Assembly: GCA_951813535.1 (NCBI GenBank)
Contig: OX638345.1
Span: forward strand, 3,216,608 to 3,280,607
Source: an uncultured Dehalococcoidia bacterium
GTDB lineage: Bacteria; Chloroflexota; Dehalococcoidia; Lucifugimonadales; UBA3495
Direction of reading: 5' to 3'
Length of the DNA stretch: 64,000 nucleotides
Positions 23,801 through 44,642 of this stretch are shown piece after piece (position 1 is the first letter of the stretch; the number at the start of each line of letters is the position of its first letter). Below the pieces are notes generated by a model, which was not told the DNA's origin, ran no database searches, and saw nothing but the letters and a program-made list of their open reading frames with translations. The position numbers and the translations under genes are program-made.

Positions 23801-25522
23801 TAAGCCCGAATCCACCGATGGGATGTCGCGGGACTGGTCAGACCGGTGATGGGAGACGTTTGAAAGGTGCGTCGAGGTTCCTGGTCCCAGTGGACCGGGT
23901 TGGGCGAGGGGTGGGGCGGGCCGAGGAGCGCCCGCAGGTGCGGTGTAGGGCGAGATCGGCAGCCAGCTTGGAGCAGGAGACACTCAGGGACCGACCTGGC
24001 GCGAATCCGCCAGGCGGTTGGGTAGTGCGGCGGACGGGACGGACGCCATCAGGAAGGGAGGGGCAAGGCGCGCAATCGAGCCAGGGCACTGCTGAACTGG
24101 TTTTGCCAGGGCCAGCCTCTGGGGAGATGCAGGGTGAGGCACCGGGCCTTGTGGGCGAGTCGTCCGGCCAGGGAGAAGAAGCGTCGCCGCAGGGTTTTGG
24201 TGGTGGCCACCGGCTCGCGCAGACCGATGCGCGCGGTCCAGCGAGCCAGGTTATGCGCCATGACCTGGACGGCCAGCCAGGCGGCGTTGGCGGGGAAGCG
24301 GCCCGATGGGAGATGGTTGAGACCCACGCCGTATTTCAGAGCCTGCGCCGCACTTGATGCGGGGTCGCGGATGGCGTTCTCGATCTCGGCGTGGCGGCGA
24401 TGGTCGGCCTCCAAGTCCAGGGTGTCGCCCTCACGATCAGTGATGAAGGCGTGATAGCTGTAGTTGGCGAAGAGGGCAAGTTGGGAGCCGGGCGTGGGCT
24501 TCACCCTACGGACAATGAGACGCACCGTGACGGCATCGGGCTCATGCTGGAAAGGAACGTAGGTTGTCTCGGCCACGTCGGCGGCGCCCTCCATCCAGTA
24601 TGAGATGGGTGTCCAGTCGGTCTCGGGAATGGCCTCGATGATGTTCCGCAGACGGGGGTGCTGGCGGACGGTGATGGAGAAGCGGACCTTCGCCTTGCGG
24701 CAGGCGGCGACAATGGCGTGGTTGTAGAAGCCGCGGTCGGCCCGCACGGTGAGTTGACCGGTGGCGCCGGCGTAGCGCACGCGGCTCACCGTCTCGCGCA
24801 GGAAGTGGGCGGCGCCCCGGGCCGTGTTGGCCCGTCCCTGGCGCAGGCGGGCCATCAGCACGTCGCCGGTGCCCGCGGCCACGGCGAACAGCGGGTGATA
24901 GCCCCGCTGGCCGGCGTAGTTGTGGCGCTGTGCGCCTTCCTTGGCAAGACCGTAAGTCTCGCAGACGGTGGAATCAAGGTCGATGGTCAACGGATCATCG
25001 CCCGGTCCGGCCCCAACGGCCCAGGCCCTCGCCAGCACCTCTCGGCTCACCCGATCCAACTGGCGCACGTGGCCCCACCGGAAGCTGCGCAGGAAGGTCC
25101 CCAGGGTGGACGGCGCTTTCACGACACAACCCAGCACCTGCTCGGTTCCCCCTGCGCGCAACGCGTCAGCATCGTCGATGCAGTCGCCACCGGCCAGCGC
25201 CGATGCCACCAACGTCAGCAGCTTGTCGCCCGGGTTCGCCCGCCCCGGCGCATCTCCCAGGTCAACATGGTTGTCCACCAGCTCGCACAATCCCAGGCGG
25301 TGGGCCATCGTAACCGGCAGGATCAGCCCAGCATTGGCCACCAGACGGTGGTCATCAAAGGCGACTTGGATGCGGTCGGGGTCGTTGCATGGTAGCATCC
25401 GATGGGTGCTCCTCGTTTCGGGCTGGTTTTCGTTGTCAAAAACCATTATCCCCGAAGCCGGGAGCACCTTCTTATCGCCTCACCCCGAGGCCACACTCAT
25501 CCTTTCGGTGGATTGGGGCTTA
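23801..25522 (-). mobile_element. IS1380-family insertion sequence, intact copy
   Basis: The ends are inverted: the left TAAGCCCGAATCCACCGA and the right (reverse complement) TAAGCCCCAATCCACCGA match at 17 of 18 positions. The core common to all copies in the window is CCCxAATCCACCGA. Inside lies a full-length transposase at 24049-25398. I see no clear direct target duplication; the flanking bases that pair are inverted. A second copy is at 42905-44642 and a solo right end at about 29145-29186. Confidence 0.85.
24049..25398 (-). CDS. IS1380-family transposase
   Basis: 449 aa from the ATG at 25398, where GAGGAG lies 10 nt upstream. An upstream ATG at 25446 is possible, but those residues diverge strongly between the two copies while the rest is conserved, so they look noncoding. 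The DDE residues are visible in LTIDLDSTVCETYG, VRADRGFYNHAIV and HAEIENAIRD. A Zn-free N-terminal helical domain precedes them. Complete, so this copy could be active. Confidence 0.9.
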   Translation of the reverse strand: MLPCNDPDRIQVAFDDHRLVANAGLILPVTMAHRLGLCELVDNHVDLGDAPGRANPGDKLLTLVASALAGGDCIDDADALRAGGTEQVLGCVVKAPSTLGTFLRSFRWGHVRQLDRVSREVLARAWAVGAGPGDDPLTIDLDSTVCETYGLAKEGAQRHNYAGQRGYHPLFAVAAGTGDVLMARLRQGRANTARGAAHFLRETVSRVRYAGATGQLTVRADRGFYNHAIVAACRKAKVRFSITVRQHPRLRNIIEAIPETDWTPISYWMEGAADVAETTYVPFQHEPDAVTVRLIVRRVKPTPGSQLALFANYSYHAFITDREGDTLDLEADHRRHAEIENAIRDPASSAAQALKYGVGLNHLPSGRFPANAAWLAVQVMAHNLARWTARIGLREPVATTKTLRRRFFSLAGRLAHKARCLTLHLPRGWPWQNQFSSALARLRALPLPS

Positions 25523-34722: not shown

Positions 34723-37700
34723 CTAACGCCCGGCCTGGCCGGCCAGTCTGAGTTTGCCGGTATCGACGCTACCGATTCGGCACTTGCCCTCTGCGCTGCA
34801 CCGCACCTGCAGGATATCGTTGAACCGCGATGTTCCGGAGCCAAGCGCACCGGCCTGACCCCTGTTGGAGACCGTAAGAGCCGTTCTCGACTGATAGCGG
34901 TGAAGCCTGCGGTCAGCCCCCTCGGTTTCGTTCAAAATGACGTCCAGAGTGTAGTTGGTGATCGGTTGGCCGCTGTAATAATGCACATCCACGTCGAACG
35001 TACCGTTCAGATAAACGTCGTGATCAGGAGCGCGGTACGATACCACCTCTGGTCCGAACCCGTTGAGGTCGTCCCGGTCCAAGAAGCCCGGGTCCTTAAT
35101 TGTGTCACCGAAGTAAATCGTTTGGCCGCTTTTGTCCGTGGTGTAGATATCAACGTCGGTTCCGTCGGTGTCCCACCGCAGCACGAACCCAACCCTTGAC
35201 GGTACCAGCACGTTGAAGTCGCTTGACGTGTTTTCAACACCTTGCAGGGTGATGACCCGAGCTTCGGTGGCCGGAGTGTTGCCATTGAAGGCTTGGGCGG
35301 TGATGCGATTGGCGCCGAGGAATACCACCACCTGCTCCGCGAAGTCGCCTCCGGAACTCATTGCCGTTTCCGTCCTGAGCCCGTTGGCGTTTATTACTAC
35401 CCTGGTTACGCCGTCCCTTGCCTCCGCCGGGATGTTGCCGCTGACGGTTACCACGCGTTCATCGACCTGTTGACCGCTGGTGTGGCTGGTTATCACGGGA
35501 TAGGGCAGGAATTCTGCCGTTGCCGGCCTCGTCCTGGTGCTGATATCGACGCTGGCGGAATGGCTGATGCTCGGGTTGACCAGCGTAACGAGCATTTCAG
35601 GCGACGCCCCGCCGGCATAGTTGAAAACCGACTGTACCACGTCGTCCCCGGTGGAGAACCACAGGTGTGGGTCCCCATCGTCGCCGATGGTATTTTCGCC
35701 GGTGAAGCCGGCATCAAGGCTGGACACCGATACGATGAGCTCGCGGTTGGACCCGACCACGATCTGGAACACGGTGCCCGACGGCTGGCCGCTGGGAGGT
35801 GTGACCAAGTACGAGTACGCTCCGGCAGCCGGGATGTCCACCGAAGCGCTGTTGTTCAGCCGTCTGGGCGCAGAGAATGTCACCGTGGGCTCGTCGGCAT
35901 CGTCGTCGAGCAGGTTGACATCCTGGCGCAATAGCGTTGCATAGTTGTACAGCGCCAGCGCGGCTTCCAGCGACGAGGACCGGTCCTCGCCCAGGTGGTC
36001 CCCGAAATCGCAAGCCCCGGCGGTGGAAAGCCACGACTTCAATTCGGTTACCCAGGTCGTATCCGACCCGGTCGCACGGGGCCGGCTCAGCACCTTGTTT
36101 AGGTCGGTATCGTAGCCGTCGCAATACGCGTCCAGCATCTTGAAGAAAAATACCCGGTGGTAGGGGTCAGCAGCCGCCGTGTCATCCGCGCTGTTTATTC
36201 CCGCTTCCATGATGCGTGGGAAGCTGCTCTTTTTATAGTCGTTTGTCTCGTCGCTCACCATATCCACGAAGGCCTCGGCGGTGCCCTCAACCAACCACAA
36301 CCTGCGCTTGGGATACCCGAACTGACTGGCAAGTATTTCAAGGGGCGAAAACGTGATAGCCAGTTCATAACCGAAGCCAGCCTTGGTGTCTGAGTGGGAC
36401 TGCACAGTGTGGAAGTACTCGTGAAACAGCACGCGCTGCGCGGTTTCCGCGAGGCCAGACCTGTTGTTGATGCGGATCACGTCTGAACTCTTCTGCTTCA
36501 CCGCACCGGCCGCCTCCAACGGTTCGATGGAGACGGTGATGTCCTTGTAGTATCCCAAGCCCATGGCATCGGCTTGCTGCTGTGCGGTGATTACCCACGA
36601 GGCAACGTCCTCCAGCGTGGCGCTGTCCTGGTCCTGGTACTGCCAGGAAACGCCGCGGGGCCAGTTGCCGGTGTTATTCCAGTTTGCTCCGTCGGCGAAC
36701 ACCCAGACTCGGATCAGGGCGTGTTTGTCCTTGCAGTATGGGAGATTCAAGCTGCTCAGGTCATGGGTTGGCACTGCGCTCAGGCCTGCCGGCACGCAGC
36801 CTGTGATGTTGTTTCCTCCGACGGTCAGGCTGCTCAAGGCGCCCAGGCGTGCTATGGACTCCGGCAACCGTCCGGACAGGTCGTTGCTCTGCAGGTCCAG
36901 ACCAGTGATCCGGCCGTCACTTCCCACAGTTACTCCATGCCAGTCGGATACGTCGGTCGAGTCGCTGAGCCAGTTTGCGTTGTTGGTCCAGCTGTCTCCG
37001 TCCGTTGCGTAGTACACACCTTCCAGCGCTTTCTGTTCCCGGCAATAGGGTCGTCCCAAATCGGCCAGGTCGTTGTCTGCGATCGAACGCAGGCCGTCGG
37101 GTATGCAACCCGAAATGGAATTGCCGGCGAGTTTGAGTTCAGTCAGGTCTATCAGGTTTGCCAACTCGTCCGGGATCTCGCCGTTGAGGTTGTTGTTTCG
37201 AAGATCCAGGGCAGTAACGCGACCGCCATCCCCAACGGTTACCCCGTGCCAGCTGGTAATTTCCTCGGTGGAGCTCAGCCAGTTGGTGTTGTTAGTCCAG
37301 CCAGCCCCTCCGGTCGCGTTGTAGAGTGCCTCAAGGGCGTGCTGGTCCCCGCAGTACTCCAGGTTCAGTCCGGCCAGGTCGTTGTCCGCCACCGAGGCGA
37401 GTCCGTCGGGAATGCACCCGACGAAGGTGTTGCCGGAGCCCAGCCCCAATCTGGTCAGGTTGGACAGGAATCCCAGGTCATGCGGGATTTGGCCGATCAA
37501 CTGGTTGCCGCTGAGGTCCAGGGTGGTCAGGCCGGTTAGCGCTCCCAATCCCTCGGGTATCGAGCCCGTCAACTGGTTGTCACTGAGGTCCAGGGAAGTC
37601 AGGGCGCCCAGAATATCCAAATTGGGTGGGATATCTCCAGTCAGCTGGTTGTCGCTGAGGTCCAGGGCGGTCAATGCGGACAGGCCGACTAGCTCACTGG

Positions 37701-39798
37701 CCACGGTCAAGAACGGTGCGGATAGCTCATTTCCATCAAGATTCAAGGCGGTCACGCGGCCGGCGCTGTTGGTGCTCACCCCGTACCATCGGTTGATGTC
37801 TTTGTTGGGCGGGGTGAAGTTGTTGATGCGCACTTTCACGTCGTCGTCGTCCGCATAGGTGCATATATAATTGGGGCTGGGCCCCCATATCGCCTCCACC
37901 AGAACCCATCGGGAATCCCTGGCGCAGGTAACCTTGTCCCTGATAGCGGCGTATGGGTCTTGCTGCGGGGCTTGAAGAGGCGCCGATCCAACAATCAGGT
38001 CTCCGAATGCGAGGCGGCGCCACAGGGTATCCACAAAAACGATGTCGTACGGGCGCGGCTTGCCACCCAGCCGAGGGGTTTCGATCATCGGCGCGTGGTG
38101 GGCTAGAAAACGACGCGCATCCTGGCCCGGCCCGGGCCCCGCTGCTGTGCCGGATATGTCGTTGCGATACCCGAAGAAATACATGCCCTCCAATCCCTGC
38201 AACCGCACCACCAGCACCGGGTCATCTGCGGTACCTTCCAGGACTATATCCTGGTAAACGGTTGACCATTCGGCGTTTCCCCCGTGTATCTCCTCGCCGT
38301 ATCCGTAGAGGTTGAACTGGTACGGAGATATGCCTCCAGGCAGTTCGCTCACCGGGAACCGGATCTCAACTGGCGAGTCGAAATCACCCTGTACCACGAA
38401 TATCTCGGTGGTCGGAGTGACCCACGAAGGAACAGGTGGGGCTTCGTTCCGAGGTACGGTTTGGAACAGCGCCTGCAACTCCGTCAGCCTGTCGGTTGAA
38501 AGGGTGGACTCCTCCGGTGGCGAGGTGACCAGCAACGCGTTCAGTTGCGACATTTCATCGGTTACCGTCAACGCATTTTTACCCAGTTCGGAATCCTCGC
38601 CCACCGTGGTGGCAATGTCTTCGGACTGAATCACCGCTATCCGGAATGAGGTCTCCGCGAACCTCTCACCGTCGGTCACCGAGATGGTGATGTCAAAGGT
38701 CATACCGACATCAGACTCCTGCGGCTCCCATACGGTGGTCCCGTCGCTGAGATCAACCACCATCCCTTCCGGGCCCTCGACGAGCGCGAAGGACAACTGG
38801 TGTCCGCCGCGATAGCTCACCACCGGATTCATCTCCGCCGGTACGTTGGGGATGAACGGTTCAAACTCCGGCGGCGGCCTTATGGACAGAACCGGGGGAA
38901 CCGGGGGTCTCGAAACCGTTGAACCGCCGCCGGAGCTGGGCCGGCTCCGGGTGCTGAGGGAAAAGGTGGCTAGTTCTGTCTCAACGCCGGCATCATCCAC
39001 CGCGACTGCGCTGAACCTCAGGGTCGTGCTGTATGTGCGTGGTGCCGAGACCGTGGACGTGAGGGTGCATTCCTGCTCCACGCCGTTTTCGCAGTCAACT
39101 TGGTCAATGTCGGTGCCGTCCTCGGCAACTAACGCCAGGTGTTCCAGGCCGCCGTCAGCATCGCTGACCCGCAATACGATCTGAACCTCCTGACCCCTTT
39201 GCAACCCGCTCCGGACGATGTCGCGAGCGTTGATTGTCTCGCCGTCTAACTCCAGAAAACTCAGTTCGGACGGCAAGTTGGGTACCGCCTCGGGTGTTGG
39301 CGCCGGAGTGGGAGCGGGTGTGGGAGTCAATTCGGGCGCCGGAGTGGGAGCGGGTGTGGGAGTCAATTCGGGTGTCGGCGTTGGAGCGGGCTCCTGCTCC
39401 TTCGGGAACACCACCTGTTTAGGCTGAGTGTAATCCTCCGCTGCGCCCGGTTCGCGGACAATCAGGTAGCATACCTTGTCCGGCGAGTTAGCCTTGTATC
39501 CCTCCTCACTGTCGTCGGAGGCGGGGTAGGCGCGAATAGTGGTGTAGCCGTTGCTGTCGGAACTGCGGATGACGAACCAGCGCTGGCCGTCAGCGTCGGT
39601 GTGATAGTCCTCGTACTGGATCTTGCCGTAGTCGGCCTGCCGCAACGCTCCGTCGTAGCCCTGCCCGGGCCAGTCCGCGGGACACTCGGGAGGGCTCTGC
39701 GCCATTGTTTGATGGGCAAACCAAGCGCCCATGGCGGCCATGCCAACAACCGTACCGATGATCACGAGCAGGGTACGCAGGTTCGGGAGCGAAATCAT
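34723..39798 (-). CDS. Large secreted LRR protein with an embedded HExxH metalloprotease domain
   Basis: 1691 aa from the ATG at 39798, with GAGG 8 nt upstream; earlier ATGs extend into the upstream gene. A signal peptide (about 1-35) is followed by a Pro/Thr-rich linker (about 133-170, tandem PTPELTPTPAPT units) and cadherin/Ig-like beta domains to about 600. Residues ~650-1020 are LRRs of the LxxLDLSxNxLxGxIP type interspersed with WTNNxNWLS...WHGVTVG and CIPDGL cassettes. HEYFH (1126-1130) and the Glu of LVEGTAE (1171) form a gluzincin-like zinc site. The rest is beta-rich. Probably a surface adhesin-protease. Confidence 0.85.
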   Translation of the reverse strand: MISLPNLRTLLVIIGTVVGMAAMGAWFAHQTMAQSPPECPADWPGQGYDGALRQADYGKIQYEDYHTDADGQRWFVIRSSDSNGYTTIRAYPASDDSEEGYKANSPDKVCYLIVREPGAAEDYTQPKQVVFPKEQEPAPTPTPELTPTPAPTPAPELTPTPAPTPAPTPEAVPNLPSELSFLELDGETINARDIVRSGLQRGQEVQIVLRVSDADGGLEHLALVAEDGTDIDQVDCENGVEQECTLTSTVSAPRTYSTTLRFSAVAVDDAGVETELATFSLSTRSRPSSGGGSTVSRPPVPPVLSIRPPPEFEPFIPNVPAEMNPVVSYRGGHQLSFALVEGPEGMVVDLSDGTTVWEPQESDVGMTFDITISVTDGERFAETSFRIAVIQSEDIATTVGEDSELGKNALTVTDEMSQLNALLVTSPPEESTLSTDRLTELQALFQTVPRNEAPPVPSWVTPTTEIFVVQGDFDSPVEIRFPVSELPGGISPYQFNLYGYGEEIHGGNAEWSTVYQDIVLEGTADDPVLVVRLQGLEGMYFFGYRNDISGTAAGPGPGQDARRFLAHHAPMIETPRLGGKPRPYDIVFVDTLWRRLAFGDLIVGSAPLQAPQQDPYAAIRDKVTCARDSRWVLVEAIWGPSPNYICTYADDDDVKVRINNFTPPNKDINRWYGVSTNSAGRVTALNLDGNELSAPFLTVASELVGLSALTALDLSDNQLTGDIPPNLDILGALTSLDLSDNQLTGSIPEGLGALTGLTTLDLSGNQLIGQIPHDLGFLSNLTRLGLGSGNTFVGCIPDGLASVADNDLAGLNLEYCGDQHALEALYNATGGAGWTNNTNWLSSTEEITSWHGVTVGDGGRVTALDLRNNNLNGEIPDELANLIDLTELKLAGNSISGCIPDGLRSIADNDLADLGRPYCREQKALEGVYYATDGDSWTNNANWLSDSTDVSDWHGVTVGSDGRITGLDLQSNDLSGRLPESIARLGALSSLTVGGNNITGCVPAGLSAVPTHDLSSLNLPYCKDKHALIRVWVFADGANWNNTGNWPRGVSWQYQDQDSATLEDVASWVITAQQQADAMGLGYYKDITVSIEPLEAAGAVKQKSSDVIRINNRSGLAETAQRVLFHEYFHTVQSHSDTKAGFGYELAITFSPLEILASQFGYPKRRLWLVEGTAEAFVDMVSDETNDYKKSSFPRIMEAGINSADDTAAADPYHRVFFFKMLDAYCDGYDTDLNKVLSRPRATGSDTTWVTELKSWLSTAGACDFGDHLGEDRSSSLEAALALYNYATLLRQDVNLLDDDADEPTVTFSAPRRLNNSASVDIPAAGAYSYLVTPPSGQPSGTVFQIVVGSNRELIVSVSSLDAGFTGENTIGDDGDPHLWFSTGDDVVQSVFNYAGGASPEMLVTLVNPSISHSASVDISTRTRPATAEFLPYPVITSHTSGQQVDERVVTVSGNIPAEARDGVTRVVINANGLRTETAMSSGGDFAEQVVVFLGANRITAQAFNGNTPATEARVITLQGVENTSSDFNVLVPSRVGFVLRWDTDGTDVDIYTTDKSGQTIYFGDTIKDPGFLDRDDLNGFGPEVVSYRAPDHDVYLNGTFDVDVHYYSGQPITNYTLDVILNETEGADRRLHRYQSRTALTVSNRGQAGALGSGTSRFNDILQVRCSAEGKCRIGSVDTGKLRLAGQAGR
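39301..39372 (-). repeat. Two perfect 36-bp tandem repeats in the Pro/Thr linker
   Basis: Units at 39301-39336 and 39337-39372 are identical; a third, degraded unit follows. Read on the minus strand they encode 12-residue Pro/Thr/Ala units of the surface protein's linker. The copy number probably varies between strains. Confidence 0.9.
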
Positions 39799-39857
39799 AA
39801 TCACAGCCTCTGTGCATGGTTCGTCGTCTCGGATTGGTGCAATGGCATGCGGCTGGT

Positions 39858-42131
39858 TCAGGCGCTGCGCCGGGGTACGGTGGGAAAGACGGCCGTGCGG
39901 CCTCCCCCGGGCACGTTCAGCGCAACCGGAGGCGACGCGGCCACCTTGGCTTCCAGGGCCATCGCCCGGGGCTTGTCCGATCCTCTGAACACGTAGCACC
40001 CTAGGGTGAAGGGCTTGAACTCCCAGTAGATCCGACGACCAACGGTGACCGGCACTTCCATCACCCCGTGGGGCTGCTCCCTCTGGGCGATGTAATCGTG
40101 GTTGTACTTGTCGAGGAATACCGATCTGGGACGTTCAAGGCTATTGCCGAAGTGGACGTCGTTTGACCCGAAGGAGTTGACCGCTTTGAGAACCCACGAT
40201 TTGGCGTCCTCCAGGATGCTGTGATGCAGGCCGGGCTCGCTCTGCAGGGTTCCAGCGGCCCAGACGTGAGTCTCCGGGATGTTGAGCCGGCGGACGCGTT
40301 GTTCGTTTCCGGTGAGTTCCAGCCCCAGGTCGCCGAGGCGCTTTTCGAAGGTGGGGTGCTTGATAAGGGCGAAAAGGAATTTGTTGCCCACCATGCGGGA
40401 CAGCATGGTGGGCGCCATGCACACAGCGTTGTCGGAGTAGGCCCGCTCCAAAGCTCCGATACCCGCGCCCCTGGCCGTTGCCGATGGAAAGTTTCTCTCT
40501 CGCATGATGTCGTCGAAGAGGAGCCGCTTGTACACCAGATCGATCTGGACGCCGTCCTCCACCCTCAACAGTTTTCCGTCGCGGTAGGTTATTTCGTCGG
40601 GTTCCAGGATCTTGGCCTCGATTCCGGCTTCTTCGAACCGTCTCTGGAACTCCCTGAATTCACTGGAGGTGGGGCGATTGCGCACGTCCACGTCCAGGAT
40701 GGCCACCGAACGAAGGGGACGAGAGGAAGCGCCGGTGGCCGCGAGGTACCCGTTCCAGTGGAGTTCCAGCGCTCGGATCAAAGATTCGCAGGCCCGTCCG
40801 GGCCACTCCCGCGGGAGATAGCTCATGCCCATGGACCGGCACTGCTCGAGTTGAACCGGGATCAGGACGTCGAGGTTGAAGGTGCCGGCGGGGGAGTCGG
40901 TGTTCAATTCGAGGACATGGAGATGGCCCCGGTCGGTAAGGGTCAGGTCCACCCGGCATATCTCGGGGAGGTTGGGGCACCGAGTGTCCCGGCCGCTGAA
41001 GTTGTTGGCCAGGCTGGCCCGGGCCAAGCGTGTATCGTTGTCGTTGTACCCGGCGGCGCGCTGGAGGTGCCGGTCATCCAGAAGCACTGCCAGGGCTTTG
41101 GAACACAGGCTGACGGCAGTTTCCGAGACCAGGTTCACCTGCTCCCAAACGCCGCCGGTGATCACCAGCGGACGGAGTACGTAGGGGATCAGATCTACTT
41201 GGTCGTCCGTGATCCTGCGGGTGCAGTCGGCTTCCTGCAGGGTTCTCCGCAGGTTCTGCTCCCAGGTCAAGATTTCTTCTAAACTCCGAGCCTTCCAAGC
41301 GGTTACGCTGAAAGGGTCGGCATAAAAGACGTCCTCGATGCGGTTGGGTTCGGGGAGGGCGACCTCCGGCCGGTGGACCCTGGCCAGGGCGTTGGTGATC
41401 GCATCGTGGTAGCCCTTTCGCACCGCCGTTCGGTACCCGGCAGGCATGGGCCGGGGTTCCTCTCTCGGGCTGCGGAAGGTCACCACCCGTTGCCCCACGG
41501 GCAGCGACTTCTCACTAGCGAGGCGAATATCGGCGGTTACGTCGACCTCCGCGTAGGAGCGCTCACGCCAGCGCAGGCGCTGAAGGTCTCCATCTGTGAC
41601 GTTGATTAGGGCACCGGGTACCGACCCAGTGGTTTCAGGGGTGTAGTCAACCGTGAGCCATTCGAGGTACAGGTCGTTTACCGAGGCGCCTTCGTGGTCG
41701 ATCAGAGGACGCCAACTGGGTAGACCCCAATTGATGCTGTGGTTTTCCAAAAAGGCTGGGATGCATTCGATATTCCGCTGCGGATTAGCCAGGGAGCGCC
41801 GCAGGCTGGCTGAATCCAGAAGGCTGCCGTACACGAACAATGGGTTCCAAACCACATCGGTAAACTCTTCCACAATGGTCAAAGCGTCTTGGAGCTGGGC
41901 TTGATATTCAACGAAAAGACGGCGCAGCATGGTGCGCCGTCTGGGCCCCGTTAACCCATCCCCGAACACGGCGTCGCCGATCTGCGTGATATAGGTCCTG
42001 ATGGTATTGGCCGTGACATATAGATCCCGGGCCATTTCTTCGTCGCTGTAGTCTTCCCCGATCATCTGGACAATCCGCCGCCAGCGTTCCGTCCAACCTT
42101 CGTACTTTTCCCCGAATCCGTAGCCAGTCAT
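39858..42131 (-). CDS. Fusion of LuxR-like HTH, gamma-glutamylcyclotransferase-like and ATP-grasp domains
   Basis: 757 aa from the ATG at 42131, with GAGG 6 nt upstream. Residues ~10-60 form a LuxR/GerE-like HTH (YSDEEMARDLYVTANTIRTY). Residues ~96-205 are gamma-glutamylcyclotransferase-like, with PLFVYGSLLD and a Glu-bearing RERSYAEVDV strand. From ~270 to 740 is a circularly permuted ATP-grasp ligase, with LELNTDSPAGTFNLD, LVYKR, KFLFALI, SWVLKAVNSFGSND and the C-terminal WEFKPFTLGCYVF. Cyclotransferases cleave gamma-glutamyl peptides and ATP-grasps build amide bonds, so opposing activities may sit in one DNA-binding protein. The LRR protease starts 59 bp downstream. Confidence 0.8.
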   Translation of the reverse strand: MTGYGFGEKYEGWTERWRRIVQMIGEDYSDEEMARDLYVTANTIRTYITQIGDAVFGDGLTGPRRRTMLRRLFVEYQAQLQDALTIVEEFTDVVWNPLFVYGSLLDSASLRRSLANPQRNIECIPAFLENHSINWGLPSWRPLIDHEGASVNDLYLEWLTVDYTPETTGSVPGALINVTDGDLQRLRWRERSYAEVDVTADIRLASEKSLPVGQRVVTFRSPREEPRPMPAGYRTAVRKGYHDAITNALARVHRPEVALPEPNRIEDVFYADPFSVTAWKARSLEEILTWEQNLRRTLQEADCTRRITDDQVDLIPYVLRPLVITGGVWEQVNLVSETAVSLCSKALAVLLDDRHLQRAAGYNDNDTRLARASLANNFSGRDTRCPNLPEICRVDLTLTDRGHLHVLELNTDSPAGTFNLDVLIPVQLEQCRSMGMSYLPREWPGRACESLIRALELHWNGYLAATGASSRPLRSVAILDVDVRNRPTSSEFREFQRRFEEAGIEAKILEPDEITYRDGKLLRVEDGVQIDLVYKRLLFDDIMRERNFPSATARGAGIGALERAYSDNAVCMAPTMLSRMVGNKFLFALIKHPTFEKRLGDLGLELTGNEQRVRRLNIPETHVWAAGTLQSEPGLHHSILEDAKSWVLKAVNSFGSNDVHFGNSLERPRSVFLDKYNHDYIAQREQPHGVMEVPVTVGRRIYWEFKPFTLGCYVFRGSDKPRAMALEAKVAASPPVALNVPGGGRTAVFPTVPRRSA

Positions 42132-42186
42132 TCTGCACCTCACCCTTGATATTCGGGCCAGGCAGAGCCTTGAGCCCAAACCTATG

Positions 42187-42904: not shown

Positions 42905-44642
42905 TTGACCCGAATCCACCGAAGGGGTACGACCGCGGGGGTCAAACCAGGGATGAGAGGCGAGGGAAACAGGCTGTAGCGCTTTGATCCCCGGAGATCC
43001 GGCTGGGTGTGGGTTGTGACCGCCGCAGAAAGGGGTTATTGACGACCGCAGGTCGTGTCGGAGGACGAGATCAGCTTGCAGACGGCGGCAGGAGGCAATC
43101 TGTGCCCAGACTGGCGCAGACCCGCCAAGCGGTTGGGTAGTGCGGCGGGCGGGTAGGATGTCGTCAGGCCGGGAGTGGCAGGGCGCGCAGCCTCGCCAGG
43201 GCGGAGTTGAACTGGTTTTGCCAGGGCCAGTCCTGGGGTAGATGTAAAGTGAGGCGGCGTGCCTTGCGGGTGATGCGTCCGGGGAGGGAGAAGAAGCGTC
43301 GCCGGAGGGTTTTGGTGGTGAACACCGGCTCGCCCAGACCGATGCGCGTCGTCCAGCGAGCAAGGTTGTGGGCCATGACCTGCACGGCCAGCCAGGCGGC
43401 GTTGGCGGGGAAGCGGCCCGAAGGGAGATGGTTGAGCCCGACGCCGTATTTCAGAGCCTGCCCCGCACTTGATGCGGGGTCGCGGATGGCGTTCTCGATC
43501 TCGGCGTGGCGGCGATGGTCGGCCTCCAGGTACAGGGTGTCCCCGTCCCGGTCTGTGATGAAGGCGTGGTAACTGTAGGTGGCAAACAGCGCCAGTTGTG
43601 AGCCGGGCGTGGGTTTCACCCTCCGGACGATGAGCCGCACGGTCGCGGCGTCGGGTTTGCTCTCGAAGGGTACATACGTGGTCTCCGCTACGTCGGCGGC
43701 GCCCTCCATCCAATAGGGAATGGGGGTCCAGTCTGCCTCGGGTATGGCCTCGATGATGTTCCGCAAACTGGTGTGCTGGCGGACGGTGATGGAGAAGCGG
43801 ACACTCAGCTTGCGGCAAGCGGCGACAATGGCGTGGTTGTAGAAGCCACTGTCGGCCCGCATGGTGAGTTGACCCGTGGCTCCGGCGTGGCGCACGCGGC
43901 TCACCGTCTCCCGCAGGAAGTGGGCGGCGTCTCTGGCCGTGTTGGCTCTGCCCTTGCGCAGACGGGCCATCAGCACGTCGCCGGTGCCAGCAGCGACGGC
44001 GAACAGCGGATATAGCCCCGCTGGCCGGCGTAGTTGTGGCGCTGTGCGCCTTCCTTGGCAAGACCGTAAGTCTCGCAGACGGTGGAATCAAGGTCGATGG
44101 TCAACGGATCATCGCCCGGTCCGGCGCCAGCCGACCACGCTCGGGCCAGAAATTCACGGCTCACCCGATCCAGCTGGCGCACGTGCCCCCACCGGAAACT
44201 GCGCAGGAAGGTCCCCAATGTGGATGGCGCCTTGACCGCGCAGCCCAGCACCTGCTCGGTCCCGCCAGCTCGCAGCGCGTCGGCTTCGTCGATGCAGTCG
44301 CCACCGGCCGGCGCCGACGCCGACGCCGCCAGGGTCAGCAGTTTGTCTCCAGCATTGGCTCGACCCGGCGCATCTCCCAGGTCAACATGGTTGTCCACCA
44401 GCTCGCACAATCCCAGGCGGTGGGCCATCGTAACCGGCAGGATCAGCCCAGCATTGGCCACCAGGCGGTGGTCATCAAAGGCGACGTGGATGCGATCGGG
44501 GTCGTTGCGTGGTAGCGTCCGTTGGGTGCTCCTTGTTTCAGGGTGGTTTTCTGTTTCAAAAACCATTATCCCCGAAGCCGGGAGCACTTTCTCATCCCTT
44601 CACCACGACGCCGCGCTCATCTCTTCGGTGGATTAGGGTCAA
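42905..44642 (-). mobile_element. IS1380-family insertion sequence, degraded copy
   Basis: The ends TTGACCCGAATCCACCGAAG and, reverse-complemented, TTGACCCTAATCCACCGAAG are inverted. The flanks TGCT and TCCT could be a decayed 4-bp target duplication. The transposase carries a frameshift. The copy is clearly related to the one at 23801 but has many base differences, so it is an older insertion or came from another lineage. Confidence 0.85.
43164..44518 (-). pseudogene. Frameshifted IS1380 transposase
   Basis: It is colinear with the intact transposase at 24049-25398. One base is missing at about 44010, where the intact copy has GCGGGTGATAGCC and this one GCGGATATAGCC. The frame changes after the GQRGY segment. 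The start codon at 44518 is ACG, not ATG. The downstream half still encodes the second and third DDE residues in the second frame. Non-functional. Confidence 0.85.

Follow-up and report, generated by a model that had tools for sequence, protein, structure and literature searches.

GspS and YgiC/YjfC, the nearest characterised ligases to the protein described here, link the carboxylate of a peptide to an amine (spermidine); they do not themselves produce the gamma-glutamyl bond. In butirosin synthesis, gamma-glutamyl protection and deprotection are carried out by two separate proteins, BtrJ and BtrG. NadR combines a helix-turn-helix (HTH) with two enzyme domains in one chain, and the ligands of these enzymes act on DNA binding. 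Opposed synthetase and hydrolase domains share a single chain in GspSA (PMC6272389) and in trypanothione synthetase-amidase, where the role of the amidase half has been described as unclear (PMC2784880).

Here we describe a protein of an uncultured Dehalococcoidia bacterium (Chloroflexota) that carries an HTH, a gamma-glutamylcyclotransferase (GGCT) domain and an ATP-grasp domain with predicted activities. Its gene lies in a window of 64,000 nucleotides, the whole stretch of DNA that was analysed (Table 1). Like E. coli GspSA (PDB 2io7, 3o98), the protein has a C-terminal GspS-type ATP-grasp and, on the N-terminal side of it, a domain predicted to cleave amides. Unlike in GspSA, the cleaving domain has the GGCT fold and is not a CHAP cysteine amidase, and an HTH has been added; Pfam matched no CHAP cysteine amidase in the whole protein or its segments, the GGCT standing in that place. 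NadR differs in having unrelated enzymes, which belong to the NAD pathway.

Table 1. Features of the fusion gene, in window coordinates.
Feature	Position	Strand	Basis
Single ORF P0001, HTH + GGCT + ATP-grasp, 757 aa	39858..42131	(-)	Open from ATG to TGA
TGA stop of the fusion ORF	39858-39860	(-)	
GspS-like, circularly permuted-type ATP-grasp, residues ~300-757; R393, D395, E408, N410, K584, K649, Q683	39861..41234	(-)	Relatives, profile, alignment
GGCT domain, residues ~96-246; YGS 101-103, catalytic-position Glu190	41394..41846	(-)	Profile, alignment, model
NarL/LuxR (GerE) helix-turn-helix, residues 9-54	41970..42107	(-)	GerE, VraR and relative matches
GAGGTG, ribosome-binding-like site, 4 bases 5' of the ATG	42136..42141	(-)	Sequence

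One intact gene with an N-terminal helix-turn-helix

The ORF is one intact, complete gene. Its codon-position G+C (0.63/0.45/0.76) is similar to that of the neighbouring genes. As the C-terminus of the protein coincides in the alignment with the ends of standalone ATP-grasp relatives, the gene bears no sign of truncation or frame error. A sequence-only reading of this DNA had proposed one gene for a three-domain protein, and we looked for the two findings that would have told against it, a frame error or a domain lacking support; neither occurred. All three proposed domains are borne out, the HTH and the ATP-grasp by their relatives and the GGCT by its profile. Whole-protein Pfam matches were weak and under the cut-off (GerE 0.082, GSP_synth 0.13, GGACT 0.16). 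When the segments were searched separately, the same families appeared in the proposed order of HTH, GGCT and ATP-grasp, with E-values of 0.0034 for GerE, 0.0066 for GGACT/PF06094 and 0.048 for GSP_synth, all of which remain under the curated cut-offs. A single-sequence structure prediction of the full protein was unusable (pLDDT 36).

By its sequence, the head of the protein is a GerE/NarL-type HTH, for which DNA binding is predicted. The GerE segment match covers residues 14-51 (17.4 bits vs a cut-off of 23.5), and among PDB entries VraR-type HTHs match residues 8-51 (E 0.0095). Across relatives, HTHs match stretches within residues 7-63 at E 9.6e-4 to 1.9e-5; over residues 14-52, the HTH stretch of one relative from the class shares 49% identity with the protein (E 1.9e-5). 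The two relatives that were read (L002, L036) are receiver-HTH (REC-HTH) response regulators. In LuxR/NarL regulators a receiver or autoinducer-binding domain precedes an HTH that is C-terminal, whereas in the fusion protein the HTH is N-terminal, starting at residue ~9, and whole-protein Pfam found no receiver domain ahead of it. A sigma-70-like promoter of the fusion gene was looked for by its consensus and none was found. The upstream inverted repeats CGAACCC/GGGTTCG and TTGTGT/ACACAA are barely above chance, with 4% of shuffles reaching the longest.

A divergent GGCT domain

Profile and model together indicate that residues ~96-246 form a GGCT domain, with predicted activity. The independent test of this identity is a shuffle test: a profile of 114 viral GGCTs, drawn from two types, gave 16.7 bits against residues 89-262, compared with at most 6.3 bits when that segment was shuffled 5,000 times, and its alignment spans the YGS motif through the P..Y...G tail. 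PF06094 reached 17.4 bits on the segment, against a cut-off of 22.8. Across 74 sequences aligned with MAFFT (73 GGCTs and the fusion protein), the only invariant columns are Y101, G102, E190 and Y193. The YGS(L/N) motif near the domain start is present (Y101-G102-S103-L104) and the catalytic Glu of GGCTs is kept, as E190 falls in the invariant Glu column; around it, the fusion protein has LRWRE where LDxxE is usual.

An AlphaFold2 model of the domain on this GGCT-seeded alignment had a mean pLDDT of 72. The first eight Foldseek matches of this model were human GGCT and plant AIG2-like proteins, and VIA-align superposed 121 residues on human GGCT (3cry) at 2.5 A, with a Z of 12.2. The structure check that the sequence-only reading had suggested thus agrees with its GGCT assignment, although the model is not a fully independent test, having been built on an alignment made up of GGCTs. 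The domain shares with human GGCT (PDB 3cry, 2rbh) and the AIG2/GGCT clan the predicted fold, the YGS motif and the catalytic-position Glu; unlike human GGCT, to which it is only 15% identical in sequence, it is fused to two other domains.

The GGCT domain has diverged too far to be picked up by pairwise search, which returned only noise in 400 phylum genomes and in plasmids. Class-level matches to residues 131-301 (L246, L247) were rejected as noise, since the frames that they overlap run antisense to beta-lactamase-like and HD-type genes. A YtfP-only profile gave 4.6 bits, within the shuffle range, so the YtfP type is not a close relative of the domain. The segment is the sole PF06094-like match in the genome to which the window belongs. 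Among the viral sequences, contig IMGVR_UViG_3300037427_001608 (L120, L196) encodes two different GGCT-type domains, of the YGSN and YGTL types, consecutively in one reading frame.

The ATP-grasp domain and its standalone relatives

Residues ~300-757 are, as judged from sequence, a GspS-like ATP-grasp of the circularly permuted (CP) type, with predicted ligase activity. Their closest sequence relatives are CP_ATPgrasp_2-like proteins of Chloroflexota, standalone and ~460 residues long, which match with a best E of 1.3e-18 at 22-27% identity. These differ from the fusion protein in being single-domain, without HTH or GGCT, and in lying in a conserved cluster with GCS2. Matches were found in 88 of 400 phylum genomes and are mostly standalone ATP-grasps, a few being HTH-only. 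Against solved structures, the family profile matched a putative glutathionylspermidine synthase (3n6x, 1.6e-12) and the E-64 ligase Cp1B (PDB 9cjn, 8.7e-11), as well as YjfC, YgiC and E. coli GspSA (2io7, E 5.4e-5). Cp1B is likewise an ATP-grasp, but is a fungal natural-product enzyme with a single activity and no fusion (PMC12568646).

The metal and catalytic residues of the R.D ... E.N pattern are kept (R393, D395, E408 and N410, the last three being metal ligands), and K584, K649 and Q683 are likewise conserved in comparison with 15 standalone relatives. Half of the positions invariant in these relatives (38/76) are kept in the fusion protein. In the lid loop after the ATP-binding lysine, K649 and G655 are retained and GGKG has become GSND, so that the glycines are partly lost. 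Other matches of the ATP-grasp profile in the genome that contains the window are canonical CP ATP-grasps, not fusions, and their neighbours were recognised by eye as alpha-E-like and transglutaminase-like genes.

A GCS2 gamma-glutamyl ligase, recognised by motif, adjoins the standalone ATP-grasp in 24 of the 29 loci read, several of which are incomplete; Pfam verified it at 1e-62 or better in all three loci scanned. A second neighbour, with a RISHEVPYY-like motif, occurs in 26/29 loci; it has no Pfam match and looks ATP-grasp-like by eye. This conserved three-gene cluster of Chloroflexota (L004-L032), which consists of a ~330-residue RISHEVPYY-like protein, the ~460-residue CP-type ATP-grasp and the GCS2 ligase, may encode an undescribed gamma-glutamyl peptide or thiol pathway. 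Gene neighbourhood links the standalone family to gamma-glutamyl chemistry independently of the fused GGCT. As the GCS2 neighbours connect the family to gamma-glutamyl amides, fusion of a GGCT to such an ATP-grasp makes biochemical sense. A consistent placement of GGCT genes beside ATP-grasp genes in the phylum was ruled out: the two are mostly on different contigs or distant, and the nearest pair (in G406) is 10 kb apart.

Occurrence and surroundings of the fusion

The sequence-only reading knew no described family with this domain order and suggested a search for its conservation across genomes. A search of 250 genomes from the order, 393 from the class and 400 from the phylum (overlapping sets) gave no second HTH-GGCT-ATP-grasp fusion, nor did the phages and plasmids searched, and we found no paper on such a protein in the open-licence literature. 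The novelty of the order is in keeping with these results; the fusion is present in a single sampled Chloroflexota genome, with no second example by which conservation of the order could be judged. Neither the whole protein nor the Chloroflexota ATP-grasp had a relative on viral contigs. Six 8-residue peptides of the protein, compared with one genome each of 84,980 species in a scan that reaches close relatives only, gave nothing beyond chance; an apparent relative in Thermoprotei (L003) was a chance 8-mer inside an ABC transporter.

We saw no GCS2 cluster around the fusion gene in the window, and GCS2 was absent when looked for in the window's own genome. An LRR protein gene lies 50 bp downstream of the fusion gene on the same strand (34723-39807 (-)). 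The LRR protein has 1,694 residues and a HEYFH motif, and many proteins of the genus share its N-terminal part (residues ~10-150). Upstream lies a broken DDE_Tnp_1_4 transposase copy (43043-44638), split between two frames and 86% identical to a copy at 24049-25467.

Possible functions of the fusion protein

We tentatively favour a GspSA-like fusion that makes and turns over a compound, in which GGCT replaces the CHAP amidase and the HTH serves regulation. Using ATP and Mg2+, the ATP-grasp would activate a small gamma-glutamyl peptide or amino acid at a carboxylate, as the acyl-phosphate, and join it to an amine. The GGCT domain would release the gamma-glutamyl group, as 5-oxoproline, from that compound or a related one. 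A single chain would hold both synthesis and turnover, or both protection and deprotection, as in E. coli GspSA. The HTH would bind DNA, most simply its own promoter, and substrate occupancy would alter this binding, as in a 'trigger enzyme' such as NadR. The sequence-only reading had proposed a bifunctional enzyme that makes and breaks a gamma-glutamyl bond and controls its own gene. Such self-control may occur, and 'bifunctional' is plausible because the main catalytic residues are kept in both enzyme domains. Joint action on one gamma-glutamyl bond is putative, and 'makes and breaks' overstates the evidence, as GspS-type ligases join a peptide carboxylate to an amine. The gamma-glutamyl bond itself is not formed by these ligases; the GGCT may therefore take the gamma-glutamyl end off the substrate or the product of the ligase and does not have to undo the ligation.

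Synthesis with turnover is supported by the catalytic residues of both enzyme domains, by the GCS2 genes adjoining the standalone relatives and by the GspSA-like precedents. Against it stand the single example among the sampled genomes, the lack of GCS2 in this genome and of a sigma-70-like promoter, and changes in each enzyme domain, which bear on rival explanations. The GGCT, under the Pfam cut-off and with its altered LRWRE, has diverged more than the ATP-grasp. The ATP-grasp may thus work as a ligase while the GGCT-fold domain binds substrate or product uncleaved and signals to the HTH; a NarL-type HTH is usually controlled by another domain of its chain, no receiver is present here, and the GGCT fold serves other chemistry elsewhere, a domain of allophanate hydrolase (4iss) being a further match of the model (Z 5.9). 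With Glu190 and the YG motif kept, we consider such a sensor rather unlikely. The partly lost lid glycines and the changed half of the family-invariant positions would also suit a cyclotransferase that degrades a gamma-glutamyl compound while its inactive C-terminal half only binds a nucleotide or peptide for regulation, in a genome without GCS2 to feed a gamma-glutamyl ligation pathway; the seven conserved ATP-grasp residues (Table 1) make this quite improbable.

Occurrence in one sampled genome and the broken transposase upstream could also point to a recent accidental or decaying fusion, one not selected for any joint function, in a region that insertion sequences have disturbed. However, the ORF is intact, its codon-position pattern is normal and both enzyme domains keep their catalytic residues. 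Moreover, each of the three domains has diverged from its relatives, which speaks against a join of very recent date, and we regard an accident as quite improbable too. Returning to synthesis with turnover, a fully self-regulated bifunctional 'trigger enzyme', whose ATP-grasp makes the compound that its GGCT cleaves and whose DNA binding is switched by substrate occupancy, would mean that a Chloroflexota lineage lacking GCS2 has a gamma-glutamyl metabolite system that is as yet uncharacterised; this we hold to be unlikely.

If active, the protein would be a second, independently built combination of a synthetase and a product-undoing enzyme in one chain, with a cleavage chemistry other than that of GspSA and its own DNA-binding domain. 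It would then allow us to ask directly why opposed activities are fused. Through its neighbours, an unannotated ATP-grasp family found beside GCS2 in many Chloroflexota is tied to gamma-glutamyl chemistry.

GspS-like ATP-grasps also occur on plasmids of many Proteobacteria, with matches in 32 plasmid records. The two plasmids that were read, from Janthinobacterium and Halomonas, carry one, annotated as 'hypothetical protein', within copper-resistance gene blocks (L033:5599-6999 and L034:5665-6915).
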